From the NCBI GenBank assembly GCA_938038205.1, contig CALHSA010000029.1, positions 1 through 30,184 of the forward strand: a stretch of DNA of 30,184 bases, in the 5' to 3' direction. Position 1 is the first letter of the stretch. Each line of letters opens with the position of its first letter. Below the pieces are notes generated by a model that ran no database searches, had not been told where the DNA came from, and worked only from the letters and a program-made list of their open reading frames with translations. Source of the DNA: an uncultured bacterium. Lineage in GTDB: Bacteria > Bdellovibrionota_C > UBA2361 > JANWWW01. The translations under genes and the position numbers were made by a program. Below, piece by piece: positions 11,240 through 15,244 of the stretch.

Positions 11240-11611
11240 ATGAGAGTTTTAATTGGTTTAGTGTTTGTTATTTTATTAATTTTTTTTCTTGCTAATCAAA
11301 GTATTGAGAACCAAAAAAAGGTACTTAAACCGAGTGAACTCTTGATGTTTGAGAAAAAAAATCTTGTACGAGTTTTAGGTAACGTGAGAAACATGCGAAT
11401 AGCTAACTCGGGAAATGATTCTTTCTTTTTTGAATTTGAGTTAACTGATGATGTTGCCAGCATTAAAACTGTTTTCTCTGGCTACAAGCCAGAACTCTTG
11501 CAAGAGGGAATCAAAGCTATTGTTGACGGAGATTGGCATTCCGGAACATTGTATGCTGCTTCAGTCCTAACTCAATGCCCATCTAAGTACGAACCGAAAA
11601 AGATCAATTAA
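11240..11611 (+). CDS. ccmE: Cytochrome c maturation haem chaperone CcmE, Cys type
   Basis: 123 residues: one N-terminal membrane anchor (residues ~2-19), then a periplasmic OB-fold (LVRVLGNVRN, FFFEFELTDD, VFSGYKPELLQEGIKAIVDGDW). In E. coli the haem is held covalently by His in HxxxY near the C-terminus; here the site is C-P-S-K-Y, Cys113 and Tyr117, so this is the CxxxY form described for delta-proteobacterial and archaeal systems (System I*). CcmE carries haem from CcmC/CcmB-CcmA to CcmF. First gene of the ccm operon; ATG without Shine-Dalgarno in an AT-rich leader; its stop shares one base with the ccmF start. Confidence 0.88.
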   Translation: MRVLIGLVFVILLIFFLANQSIENQKKVLKPSELLMFEKKNLVRVLGNVRNMRIANSGNDSFFFEFELTDDVASIKTVFSGYKPELLQEGIKAIVDGDWHSGTLYAASVLTQCPSKYEPKKIN

Positions 11612-13392
11612 TGATTGCGAAAATAGGTTGGGCATTTCTATTCGCAAGCTTTTGTTCATTTATTCTAGGATTTATACTTCAATTTTTTAAAGCTAAATTC
11701 ATTGACGATAAGAATATAATAACAACGGCTTTTTTTTTGTGTCTTTCTGCATATCTAACTTTAGTTCTGAGTTTTGTTTTAGATAAGTTTTATGTTTATG
11801 CAGTATACCAATACTCAGAGGTTGATTTAGATTTAATTTATAAGATTGCTGCATCATGGAGTGGCATGCATGGATCTTTGTTGCTTTGGACCACCGTTTT
11901 GGTATTATTCATATACTTAGGAGTTAAAAATTTTGAATTAAAAAAATTAGATTCAATATTTATTTACTTTAGTGCAATCTTCTTAACTGGATTATCATTG
12001 TTTCTTGTCAATCCTTTCCAATATGTTACAGTTTCAGGATCTGTTCCTGCAGATGGGCTTGGCCTTAACCCACTTCTTCATAATGGATTCATGTTGGCCC
12101 ATCCAATTTTTACATATCTTGGACTTAACTCTAGTGTGTATTTGGTTTTGAAAAACAGCTCTGAGAGACAGGCAAACAAAATTGATAATCTTGAGGCTTT
12201 TGGTTGGATATGTTTAACAGTGGGAATTTTTTTAGGCGGCATCTGGGCCTACCTAGAGCTTGGATGGGGTGGTTATTGGGCCTGGGATCCGGTTGAAAAC
12301 TCATCTTTCATACCTTGGTTAAGTTACACTGCCTATTTACATCTTTTCAAATACAAAGCGGGTGAAAAGTACAGAAAATTTTTAGCATATTTGACTCATT
12401 TTTTTGCCATTTTTGGAACATTCCTTACACGAACCGGGTTTGTTCAGTCTGTTCATACTTTTTCAAACTCAGAAATGGGTTGGTACTTAAAGTTTTATGT
12501 TTTCTTTGCGTTGATTTTAACATTCTATAATTTTTTAACAGCCATACGAAAACAAGAAAAAACACAGAATCGATTTGAATTATTAATGTCCCTTCAAACT
12601 CTAACTTTCGTATTTTACGCTTTATCTATCCTTTGGGGAGTACTATATGGTCCTTTAGCAGATCTTCTTTTTGGTGAGCAGGTGATTCTTGGTATACCTT
12701 TTTTTGATGCAATATCACTACCATACTGGGGTATTTTGCTATCTATCATGCCTTTTGGATTTCTTTACCGTAGTAGTGGCGAAACAAGGGGTACTCTAGT
12801 ATCAGTGATTGCATCTTTTATTATTGCTATTAAAGCATACTGGTCGTTTGATAGCATTTCAAGTATAGATGCTATTTTCATTGCAATTTTTTGTTTTAAT
12901 ACTATCTGCTATACATTAAAACTATTCAGGTCAAAAACAAGTGACCAAGTATTACTTCTTTTGGTTCACTTCTTTGTAATTCTTACTGGTGTAGGAATCT
13001 TTTTTTCATACAATAAAAAAATAGAGATCAACCTAAGACTGGAGAGAGATAATCCAAAAGAGTTGTTTAACCACATTATCGTATTCAAAGGAATCGAGGT
13101 CGAAAAAAACAGGATTTTTGAGGAGGTAAAAGCAAAAATACTAATAGATAACAAGTTGGTTAAACCAGCATCTAGGTATTATTTCAAAAAAAATCAGGTG
13201 ACTGCAGAAATAGGTTTAGTAACGGAAATAAAAAAAGACATTTACATTTCTTTAGTTGAAATAGCGGAGGATGGCGAAACTGTAGCAGTCAAAGTTTACT
13301 TTAATCCTTGGGTTATTTTAGTTTGGTTGGGAATTACTGGCCTCTTAGTCTCTTACACACTTTATCGAATTCATGGTTATTTTAGATTGTAG
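11611..13392 (+). CDS. ccmF: Cytochrome c haem lyase subunit CcmF
   Basis: 593 residues with many membrane helices. The WWD signature WGGYWAWDPVENSSFIPW (residues 219-236) is intact. Haem-ligand candidates are H164 in MLAHPIFTYLG and H282 in FLTRTGFVQSVHTF, matching the family blocks around these motifs. A long C-terminal periplasmic region (from ~residue 470, KKIEINLRLERDN) precedes the last membrane helix. CcmF takes haem from holo-CcmE and attaches it to the CxxCH of apocytochrome c. About 50 residues shorter than the E. coli protein. The start overlaps ccmE by one base (TAATG) and the end overlaps ccmA by 20 bases, indicating translational coupling. Confidence 0.95.
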   Translation: MIAKIGWAFLFASFCSFILGFILQFFKAKFIDDKNIITTAFFLCLSAYLTLVLSFVLDKFYVYAVYQYSEVDLDLIYKIAASWSGMHGSLLLWTTVLVLFIYLGVKNFELKKLDSIFIYFSAIFLTGLSLFLVNPFQYVTVSGSVPADGLGLNPLLHNGFMLAHPIFTYLGLNSSVYLVLKNSSERQANKIDNLEAFGWICLTVGIFLGGIWAYLELGWGGYWAWDPVENSSFIPWLSYTAYLHLFKYKAGEKYRKFLAYLTHFFAIFGTFLTRTGFVQSVHTFSNSEMGWYLKFYVFFALILTFYNFLTAIRKQEKTQNRFELLMSLQTLTFVFYALSILWGVLYGPLADLLFGEQVILGIPFFDAISLPYWGILLSIMPFGFLYRSSGETRGTLVSVIASFIIAIKAYWSFDSISSIDAIFIAIFCFNTICYTLKLFRSKTSDQVLLLLVHFFVILTGVGIFFSYNKKIEINLRLERDNPKELFNHIIVFKGIEVEKNRIFEEVKAKILIDNKLVKPASRYYFKKNQVTAEIGLVTEIKKDIYISLVEIAEDGETVAVKVYFNPWVILVWLGITGLLVSYTLYRIHGYFRL

Positions 13393-13912
13393 TATTTCGA
13401 AGCTCTTTCGTGGTCAAAAGCTAGTTATAAAAAACTCGAGAATTCAGGTATGCCAAGGTGATAGAGTTTACTTAAAAGGTTTGAATGGGGTTGGCAAAAC
13501 ATCGCTTTTGCTAGCTTTATCAAATCAACTTGATTTTAAAGGCTTCTTACACAAAGAGATGAGAGCCCTTTATATACCCCCTAAAGGAGTTTTTTTTGAT
13601 TTTCTAACTCCAGAGGAAAATTCTAGAATATTACTACTAAAAGATATAACCTCTCCAAAAGAAATCATGCTAAATTTAAGCGCTGGTCAAAGAATTTTTT
13701 GGGAGCTTTCTCTATTGATAAATTCAAGTGACATTATCTACTTACTTGATGATTGCTTAAGTTATCTCGATTCAGAACTGCTTCAAATAATTTTTAATTT
13801 AATATCCAAGTTGAACCGAACCTGTATTTTTGCCTCTCAAGATGAAAGAGTAAGTAACTTTGCAACAAAAATATATGAAATTAGAGATAAAAAAATTTTT
13901 CAATCTAGCTAA
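13373..13912 (+). CDS. ccmA: CcmA-like ABC ATPase subunit with altered catalytic residues
   Basis: 179 residues, short for an ABC ATPase and a little under the ~205 of E. coli CcmA. Walker A GLNGVGKT (36-43) and the signature LSAGQ (102-106, as in many CcmA) are intact. Walker B IIYLLDD ends in Asp127 where the catalytic Glu is expected. The D-loop is SYLD (130-133). The switch position reads ASQDE, with Gln156 instead of His. In E. coli, CcmA with CcmB releases holo-CcmE from CcmC at the cost of ATP. Identity rests on these motifs and on its place between ccmF and ccmB. The gene overlaps both neighbours. Confidence 0.8.
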   Translation: MVILDCSISKLFRGQKLVIKNSRIQVCQGDRVYLKGLNGVGKTSLLLALSNQLDFKGFLHKEMRALYIPPKGVFFDFLTPEENSRILLLKDITSPKEIMLNLSAGQRIFWELSLLINSSDIIYLLDDCLSYLDSELLQIIFNLISKLNRTCIFASQDERVSNFATKIYEIRDKKIFQSS

Positions 13913-14501
13913 AGCAACCGCTTTAACGGAAATTCGAGGAGGTGCGTTTTTAAAAATTTCTATGATTCTAGCAGCCCTGGTAGTTTTTGTTGTTTACTTA
14001 GTTAACCTTATGATTCCAGCTCCTAGCTTTCAAGCAGATAGATTCTTTATTTGGTATTGGCTTACATCGATTTGCATCATTCAGATAATTCTCGTTTATC
14101 AAATTAACAGAACAGAGTTAAAATCGCTTTTACAACTTTTGATTATTAATGGATACGGATCAAATCAACTGACTTTATTTTATTCATCATATTTTTTCCT
14201 CGTTTCAATAATATTCGAGGCCATTGTGACGTTCTTACCACAAACCTTTATGGAAGGTTTGCCAACAGCTGATTTGATATCAATATTAGTAACCTCGTCG
14301 TTAATTTTTTCTCAGATTCTTTTATATGTAGTGACTAATAAAACAACGATATTTCCCTTAGCTATTTTAATTTTAGGTTTTAATTTAGTAGTTTCATTTA
14401 ATTTAGTCGAAAAGACCAATTACACTTTTAATCTACTGGCTATTTTTTTATCGTTAGTATTGTATAAACTAAATCATGACTCTATTAGAGTACTTGGTTA
14501 A
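13875..14501 (+). CDS. ccmB: CcmB-like membrane subunit of the haem-chaperone release transporter
   Basis: 208 residues from ATG 13875; an in-frame TTG at 13860 would add five. After a short basic start (KKFFNLAKATALTEIRGG) there are six hydrophobic helices, as in CcmB (about 220 residues, six helices). Sequence conservation is low, and the expected FxREPDQG-type block is not obvious, so the name relies on topology, length, and its place between ccmA and ccmC. It overlaps ccmA by 38 bases and ccmC by 26 bases. No Shine-Dalgarno. Confidence 0.65.
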   Translation: MKLEIKKFFNLAKATALTEIRGGAFLKISMILAALVVFVVYLVNLMIPAPSFQADRFFIWYWLTSICIIQIILVYQINRTELKSLLQLLIINGYGSNQLTLFYSSYFFLVSIIFEAIVTFLPQTFMEGLPTADLISILVTSSLIFSQILLYVVTNKTTIFPLAILILGFNLVVSFNLVEKTNYTFNLLAIFLSLVLYKLNHDSIRVLG

Positions 14502-15114
14502 CTCACTCTTATTTCTTTTGACAATTGTGAGCATAAGTCTAGCTCCTCCAGAAGCAATTTTATCAACGAGTCAAAAAATAATGTATCTAAAATTGGGATG
14601 CATTTTTTCTACTTATGGAATGGTGCTAATTAGTTTCTTTGCCACAATCACATATCTAATACAAAAAAAAATTTTTTGGCAGGCTATTGTTAAAGAAGCT
14701 CTTGAGCTTGCTTTTTTTCTCTCCACAGCCTCAATAATAATGGGATCATTATGGGCCAAATTTGCTTGGAATACTTTTTTTAGTTTCGAGCCAAGATTAC
14801 TCTCGTTCTTAGTTCTTTGGTTAATCCTCCTAGCGGCTTTCACAGCTCCAAAGGAAGGTCCAAGATCAATACAATTTTACTCGCTGATTTCAGTATTGAG
14901 TGTAATATCGATACCTATTATAAAAGTATCAATTGAGTGGCTACCTGAAGACTACAGATTGCATCCTCAAATCATTTCAAAAGGTGGTTTAGAGTCTTTA
15001 TATTTTAGGATCCCTCTGATCATCAGTACAATTTTTACGTTTATTTTAAGTCTAACGCTTTTAGTTAAAGCTGTTAAAGCGCAAATGATTTATTTCAAGA
15101 TAAGGTATGGCTGA
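14476..15114 (+). CDS. ccmC: CcmC-like haem protein with altered haem-binding motifs
   Basis: 212 residues, six membrane helices. Alignment by eye to CcmC is clear around QKIMYL, MGSLWAKFAWNT, PRLLSFLVLW and ISIPIIKVSIEW. Key residues differ: the first haem-ligand His (E. coli H60, in MYIHVP) is Lys39 here (MYLKL), and the WWD motif (WGTWWVWDARL) reads WNTFFSFEPRL at 98-108. The second His is kept as H163 in RLHPQ. CcmC normally loads haem onto CcmE, so loading must work differently or this protein must have a changed role. It overlaps ccmB by 26 bases and ccmD by 8. Confidence 0.8.
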   Translation: MTLLEYLVNSLLFLLTIVSISLAPPEAILSTSQKIMYLKLGCIFSTYGMVLISFFATITYLIQKKIFWQAIVKEALELAFFLSTASIIMGSLWAKFAWNTFFSFEPRLLSFLVLWLILLAAFTAPKEGPRSIQFYSLISVLSVISIPIIKVSIEWLPEDYRLHPQIISKGGLESLYFRIPLIISTIFTFILSLTLLVKAVKAQMIYFKIRYG

Positions 15115-15244
15115 TATAGTCTTTTTACTATCGAGTTTAACTTTTTGGATTATAATCCTTATTTACTTAAGCAGAATTAACAAAAAACTTCACTCTCTTG
15201 AAAAAGAGTTAGCTGAAGAGAAAAATGAAAAATTGGATGATTAA
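15107..15244 (+). CDS. ccmD: Small membrane protein at the CcmD position
   Basis: A 45-residue frame starting ATG 15107, with AAGG just upstream, overlapping the ccmC stop by 8 bases. One membrane helix (residues ~4-20: [17 protein letters not shown]) is followed by a charged, probably helical tail ([23 protein letters not shown]). Size, topology and place directly after ccmC match CcmD, which helps release holo-CcmE from CcmABC. CcmD sequences are poorly conserved, so position is the main evidence. Its stop overlaps the convergent rpsK by 4 bases and ends the operon; no ccmG, ccmH or ccmI follows. Confidence 0.75.

Follow-up and report, generated by a model that had tools for sequence, protein, structure and literature searches.

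The window analysed here, a stretch of 30,184 nucleotides, is contig C29 of an assembly (G000) of 1.22 Mb that is 81% complete and has a GC content of 33%. Its forward strand carries a ccm operon, the features of which are collected in Table 1. The same gene order is found in G001, the only family-level relative compared (85% complete), where the ccm genes again have the divergent TPR and aldehyde dehydrogenase genes as neighbours; the G001 contig matches JANWWW010000011 of Deltaproteobacteria bacterium SKYG31. The CcmD-like protein resembles the small protein encoded 3' of ccmC in G001, and CcmC is found here in the company of CcmA, CcmB, CcmD, CcmE and CcmF. An earlier reading of the locus, made from the sequence only, had argued that the operon has not simply decayed. 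This view is borne out: the WWD segment of CcmF is intact, as had been noted, all four conserved histidines of that protein are also present, and the ccmC reading frame is whole and in overlapping register.

Table 1. Features of the ccm operon and of the CcmC heme site (positions in the window)
Feature	Positions	Strand	Description
ccmE	11240..11611	+	Heme chaperone, Cys type (Cys113-PSK-Tyr117 in place of H-x3-Y)
ccmF	11611..13392	+	Cytochrome c synthase; WWD segment WGGYWAWDPVE intact; His164, 244, 282 and 453 conserved
ccmA	13373..13912	+	ATPase; assigned from profile match (NCBIfam) and motifs
ccmB	13875..14501	+	Strongly diverged; reading frame opens at TTG 13860; assigned from operon position and fold model
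ccmC	14476..15114	+	Heme-handling membrane protein, 212 aa; ATG start; 26-base overlap with ccmB
Lys39 codon	14590..14592	+	AAA at the P-His1 position (E. coli H60)
WWD segment of CcmC	14767..14799	+	WNTFFSFEPRL (residues 98–108); Glu105 for Asp126, Arg107 for Arg128; class-typical form
His163 codon	14962..14964	+	P-His2 (E. coli H184), kept
ccmD-like	15107..15244	+	Small membrane protein, 45 aa (MADIVFLL...); TIGR04391 E = 2e-4, below cut-off

The open reading frame assigned to ccmC encodes a true CcmC, and its descent is not in doubt. It contains no internal stops, and its product matches Pfam PF01578 at 52.6 bits (cut-off 29.9) and NCBIfam TIGR01191 (ccmC) with an E-value of 1.7e-16, which falls under the strict cut-off of that model. 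An AlphaFold2 model (pLDDT 89) superimposes on the E. coli CcmC chain 7f02_C with a Z-score of 20.3 and an rmsd of 2.5 Å over 206 residues. Profile search and structural model both place the protein as a System I CcmC, in keeping with what alignment by eye had indicated.

Alignment of the family profile to the PDB sequence 7f02_C, on which the E. coli CcmC numbering is based, gives an E-value of 2.2e-33 and is ungapped around residue 39, so that this residue corresponds to E. coli residue 60. Residue 163 aligns to E. coli H184 across a three-residue gap. Of the two periplasmic histidines required in E. coli CcmC, P-His1 is therefore replaced by Lys39 and P-His2 is present as His163, which is the sole histidine in the protein. 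Both assignments had been made in the sequence-only reading and are upheld by the profile alignment. A histidine shifted out of place by misalignment can be dismissed, as there is no other histidine nearby and the profile alignment is ungapped.

The WWD segment had been described as remodelled. It does read as had been reported, but the remodelling is not particular to this gene. Comparison with 32 relatives from the class and with G001 shows that WN-x-x-[FW]-x-x-EPRL is the usual form of the CcmC motif in the class, with Glu in place of the Asp of the WWD motif in all 32 of the class relatives. Glu105, Pro106 and Arg107 are invariant in this set, with variation at the aromatic loop positions; the segment reads WNAFFHFEPRL in G001, which has the FFxFE variant in common with the CcmC studied here. 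We conclude that the WWD form was inherited and is ordinary for the clade, and local remodelling is rejected. The heme site as a whole retains the two upstream tryptophans (W93 and W98), Glu105, Arg107 and His163, the Trp and Asp of the WWD loop being represented by Phe and Glu.

The situation at P-His1 is different. This position is His in all 32 class relatives and in G001 (YLHVPAA), as well as in 11 sequences from Poribacteria and one from a different lineage; P-His2 is likewise His in 32/32 class relatives. The possibility that Lys39 is conserved among homologues was thus not upheld, since none share it, and the comparison shows that Lys39 arose recently, in this species or genus, and is no alternative ligand used across the lineage. 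Lys39 is known from one genome; a pattern scan of GTDB r220 for close relatives returned SKYG31 (that is, G001), Poribacteria and a short Bacteroidetes match, and no others.

The sequence-only reading had also proposed that decay would be betrayed by homologues having the histidine, accompanied by random changes. Homologues do have the histidine, but the other changes confined to this CcmC at near-invariant sites are conservative and its rate of change is not raised. Among 34 near-invariant columns of the class alignment, 11 are broken in this protein and eight in G001, six of these columns being common to both; besides Lys39, those broken in this CcmC alone are V40L, A43I, L87I and V146I. At conserved sites there are 16 changes found only in this CcmC and 14 found only in G001, a rate like that of the His-keeping relative, and faster evolution of CcmC in this species is not seen. 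The two CcmC proteins are 42% identical, a value similar to those for CcmE and CcmF of the same operon. Taken together, the conservative substitutions and the even rates form a pattern unlike that of a decaying gene. Lys39 is genuine and out of the ordinary, in a protein that is otherwise a typical member of its family. A second, ordinary ccmC was searched for and not found in the 81%-complete G000 assembly, in which contig C1 (64,711 bases) reads as N in the stretches taken; a second ccmC, or the heme synthesis genes considered below, could be missed for these reasons.

Of the other proteins of the operon, CcmE has Cys in place of the heme-binding His, and this C-x3-Y (CXXXY) form is common to all the class members aligned. 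In D. vulgaris the cysteine of such a CcmE is the ligand to ferric heme, and CcmE of this type is able to bind heme non-covalently (PMC3884852). A match to the CcmH family (PF03918) was found in G000 and in five relatives, although in G000 it is short and weak at 28 bits, with 20.6 bits for part of it. ResB (PF05140) was found in none of the six genomes searched, G000 included, and on this basis System II (CcsBA) is rejected as a substitute route of maturation.

CcmA and CcmB have departed from the usual pattern. The catalytic Glu of the CcmA Walker B motif is Asp127 (13751–13753) and the H-loop His is Gln156 (13838–13840); Walker A, signature and D-loop are retained. Neither this CcmA nor that of G001 (L033 12061–12621) has the catalytic Glu and H-loop His of an active ABC ATPase, the Walker B motif reading LLDDC or LIDDC and the H-loop SQD in these two proteins. 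The aligned class relatives, on which our conclusion about CcmA is based (the E. coli sequences being extra rows in the class alignments of CcmA and CcmC), have the canonical DE and H-loop His. According to a review of degenerate ABC sites (PMC7756269), a change of Glu to Asp greatly slows ATP hydrolysis without abolishing it and is often accompanied by H-loop changes, as in ABCB2/B3 (TAP), and ABCC1 tolerates a His-to-Gln change in its H-loop. CcmA may therefore still hydrolyse ATP, and a fair reading is that it is slow rather than dead. CcmB has no Pfam or NCBIfam match and is more diverged than CcmC, with 22–25% identity to its G001 counterpart. Its model (pLDDT 81.5) has an ABC-2 fold and matches 8ce1_B with a Z-score of 16.1 and an rmsd of 3.6 Å over 198 residues; this match is tied with those to other ABC-2 membrane domains, and CcmB is absent from the best matches of Foldseek alone. 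The earlier suggestion that CcmF or CcmB has taken over heme loading finds no positive evidence, CcmB being, if anything, the more diverged protein.

The genome has c-type cytochromes to mature. Contig C20 encodes a pentaheme and a monoheme cytochrome, within a gene set (C20:9246–16501) that, from its order and sequences, we take to resemble alternative complex III. A heme-copper oxidase lies at C3:47793–51834, with two c-type heme motifs in subunit II (COX2), and two CXXCH motifs occur in another protein, encoded on contig C31. Cytochrome c maturation must therefore be needed.

The source of the heme is less apparent. Profiles for HemB, HemC, HemE and HemH gave no match in G000 (81% complete, C1 unread) or in G001 (85% complete), and all four are present in most class relatives tested, HemB occurring in 36 of 45 class genomes. 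The reading frames flanking the hem genes of two relatives, G003 and G010, some of which we presume from their sequences to be ALA synthase, HemD, HemY and HemQ, are likewise without a match in G000. The hem genes of G010 form one cluster, and a single missed cluster could explain their absence from one genome but less easily from two; heme auxotrophy of the family is likely. Auxotrophy alone is nevertheless insufficient to account for the change in CcmC, since two relatives without HemB, G004 (96% complete) and G018, keep the CcmC histidine, and the CcmA of G004 is ordinary. HemB was also not found in G011, G015, G029, G034 and G043, as in G004 and G018, and G011, G015 and G034 are without a CcmC match too, which suggests repeated loss of heme metabolism within the class. 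Heme a synthase (CtaA) gives weak matches in the family (20 bits at C15:6196–7002 of G000 and 27 bits at C8:2707–3087 of G001) and 113–307 bits in four class relatives. Each family genome has one TonB-dependent receptor (C26:111–2078 in G000; C44, L161 8869–10854, in G001), which is a candidate for heme uptake. The G000 receptor best fits the family TOL_0244, under the cut-off, and so neither supports nor excludes that role.

Several explanations of Lys39 have to be weighed against this background. An error of sequencing or assembly at codon 39 would suit a metagenome-type assembly and a position that is His in all relatives, but His (CAT/CAC) to Lys (AAA) demands two substitutions within one codon, and residues 40 and 43 nearby have changed as well; we consider it highly improbable. 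That ccmC is at an early stage of decay, heading for loss with a damaging Lys39 tolerated in a reduced genome, is quite improbable. The intact reading frame in its overlapping register argues against it, as do the 34 near-invariant columns, where there is one radical change beyond those common with G001 and the others are conservative, and the presence of cytochromes c where no other maturation system was found. These points stand against the small size of the assembly (1.2 Mb, 33% GC), the parallel divergence of CcmA and CcmB and the confinement of Lys39 to a single genome, each of which such decay would fit.

Two further explanations leave the gene a function. CcmC might be kept without heme loading, as a scaffold or membrane anchor, with CcmE taking scavenged periplasmic heme directly and delivering it to CcmF. 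The intact CcmF, the ability of Cys-type CcmE to hold heme without a covalent bond and the lack of detected heme synthesis genes, in view of which heme may come from the periplasmic side, are all in its favour; it is nonetheless improbable, because W93, W98, E105, R107 and H163 would be unneeded by a mere scaffold and yet are kept, and because the evolution of CcmC is not accelerated. The other proposal is a plain swap of ligands, in which Lys39 replaces His60 as axial heme ligand and all else is as in E. coli. NrfA nitrite reductase provides a natural precedent, lysine taking the place of His as ligand to its CXXCK heme. Lysine is also listed among possible axial ligands (PMC13141917), and here it occupies the same helix position in a site that is otherwise conserved. 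Against this, Lys39 occurs in no relative and so has no comparative support, lysine is longer than histidine and must be deprotonated, and the changes in CcmA are left unexplained. We regard such a swap as unlikely.

The explanation we prefer, to which we would give a little less than an even chance, is that CcmC is functional and constrained, and that the part of System I concerned with heme loading (CcmA, CcmB and CcmC) was retuned in a lineage no longer making heme. The most plausible context for Lys39 comes from two findings that the sequence-only reading did not make, namely the changes at the active site of CcmA and the apparent lack of a heme pathway. In E. coli, neither holo-CcmE nor cytochrome c is obtained with the CcmC variants H60A and H184A; mutants in the CcmA active site do form holo-CcmE, though no cytochrome c (PMC9616876), from which it follows that CcmA acts in release. 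Should release have little driving force in this family, a looser bond between CcmC and heme would be favoured, and the loss of P-His1 could provide it. Heme supplied from outside the cell would be held more weakly by CcmC through His163 and the WWD platform, probably with either Lys39 or CcmE Cys113 as second axial ligand, and the weaker hold would let holo-CcmE depart with little ATP-driven release by CcmA. Heme auxotrophy and the CcmA change, which are family-wide, would have come earlier, and the loss of P-His1, which is seen in this species only, later. Counting against this explanation, H60, and not H184, is the sole iron ligand seen in the E. coli cryo-EM structures (PMC9616876), which makes a site built on His163 alone less obvious.

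The value of the system lies in its combination of an altered P-His1, an altered CcmA site, an intact synthase and an apparent absence of heme synthesis. E. coli cannot mature cytochrome c without P-His1 of CcmC, nor without active-site residues of CcmA (PMC9616876); here both are non-canonical in a genome with cytochromes c and one known maturation system. It is possible, if on balance doubtful, that a Cys-type CcmE is charged with scavenged heme in the absence of a bis-His site in CcmC, both nucleotide sites of CcmA being degenerate, by a simplified and perhaps release-free route. Such a route, if true, would contradict the need for P-His1 and CcmA catalysis established in E. coli. The organism is thus an experiment of nature on the extent to which the heme-attachment machinery is really required. 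It brings heme ligation in CcmC and the role of CcmA ATP within reach of direct tests, and it suggests that what such tests show may vary with whether a cell synthesises heme itself.

Comparison with known systems brings out both the familiar and the unusual features. The CcmC described here has the fold, WWD platform, P-His2 and Arg128 equivalent of E. coli System I CcmC (CcmABCD; PDB 7F02/7F04, 8CE1) and an operon with CcmA, B, D, E and F, but it differs in having Lys at P-His1, Phe for the WWD-loop Trp and Glu for Asp126, and in that a cytoplasmic source of heme is not apparent and the catalytic residues of CcmA are altered. The C-x3-Y motif of CcmE is that of the Cys-type System I of Desulfovibrio and archaea. 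The archaeal-type CXXXY system is not known to have CcmH; this genome and five relatives, in contrast, have a CcmH-family match, and P-His1 of CcmC has been lost here. CcmA shares the catalytic Glu-to-Asp change with the degenerate ABC sites of TAP and of MRP1 (site 1), and in TAP it is likewise coupled to a deviant H-loop (PMC7756269). In those transporters one of the two sites is degenerate; as the E. coli complex contains two CcmA subunits, both would be so here. Finally, CcsBA and CcmF, heme handling proteins of the same superfamily, resemble CcmC in having a WWD domain flanked by a pair of P-His residues, but the structural match to the CcmC model is weaker (7s9y, Z-score 10.0, rmsd 3.3 Å over 143 residues). 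They keep both P-His residues, have the TM-His and attach heme to cytochrome c, whereas CcmC passes heme to CcmE.
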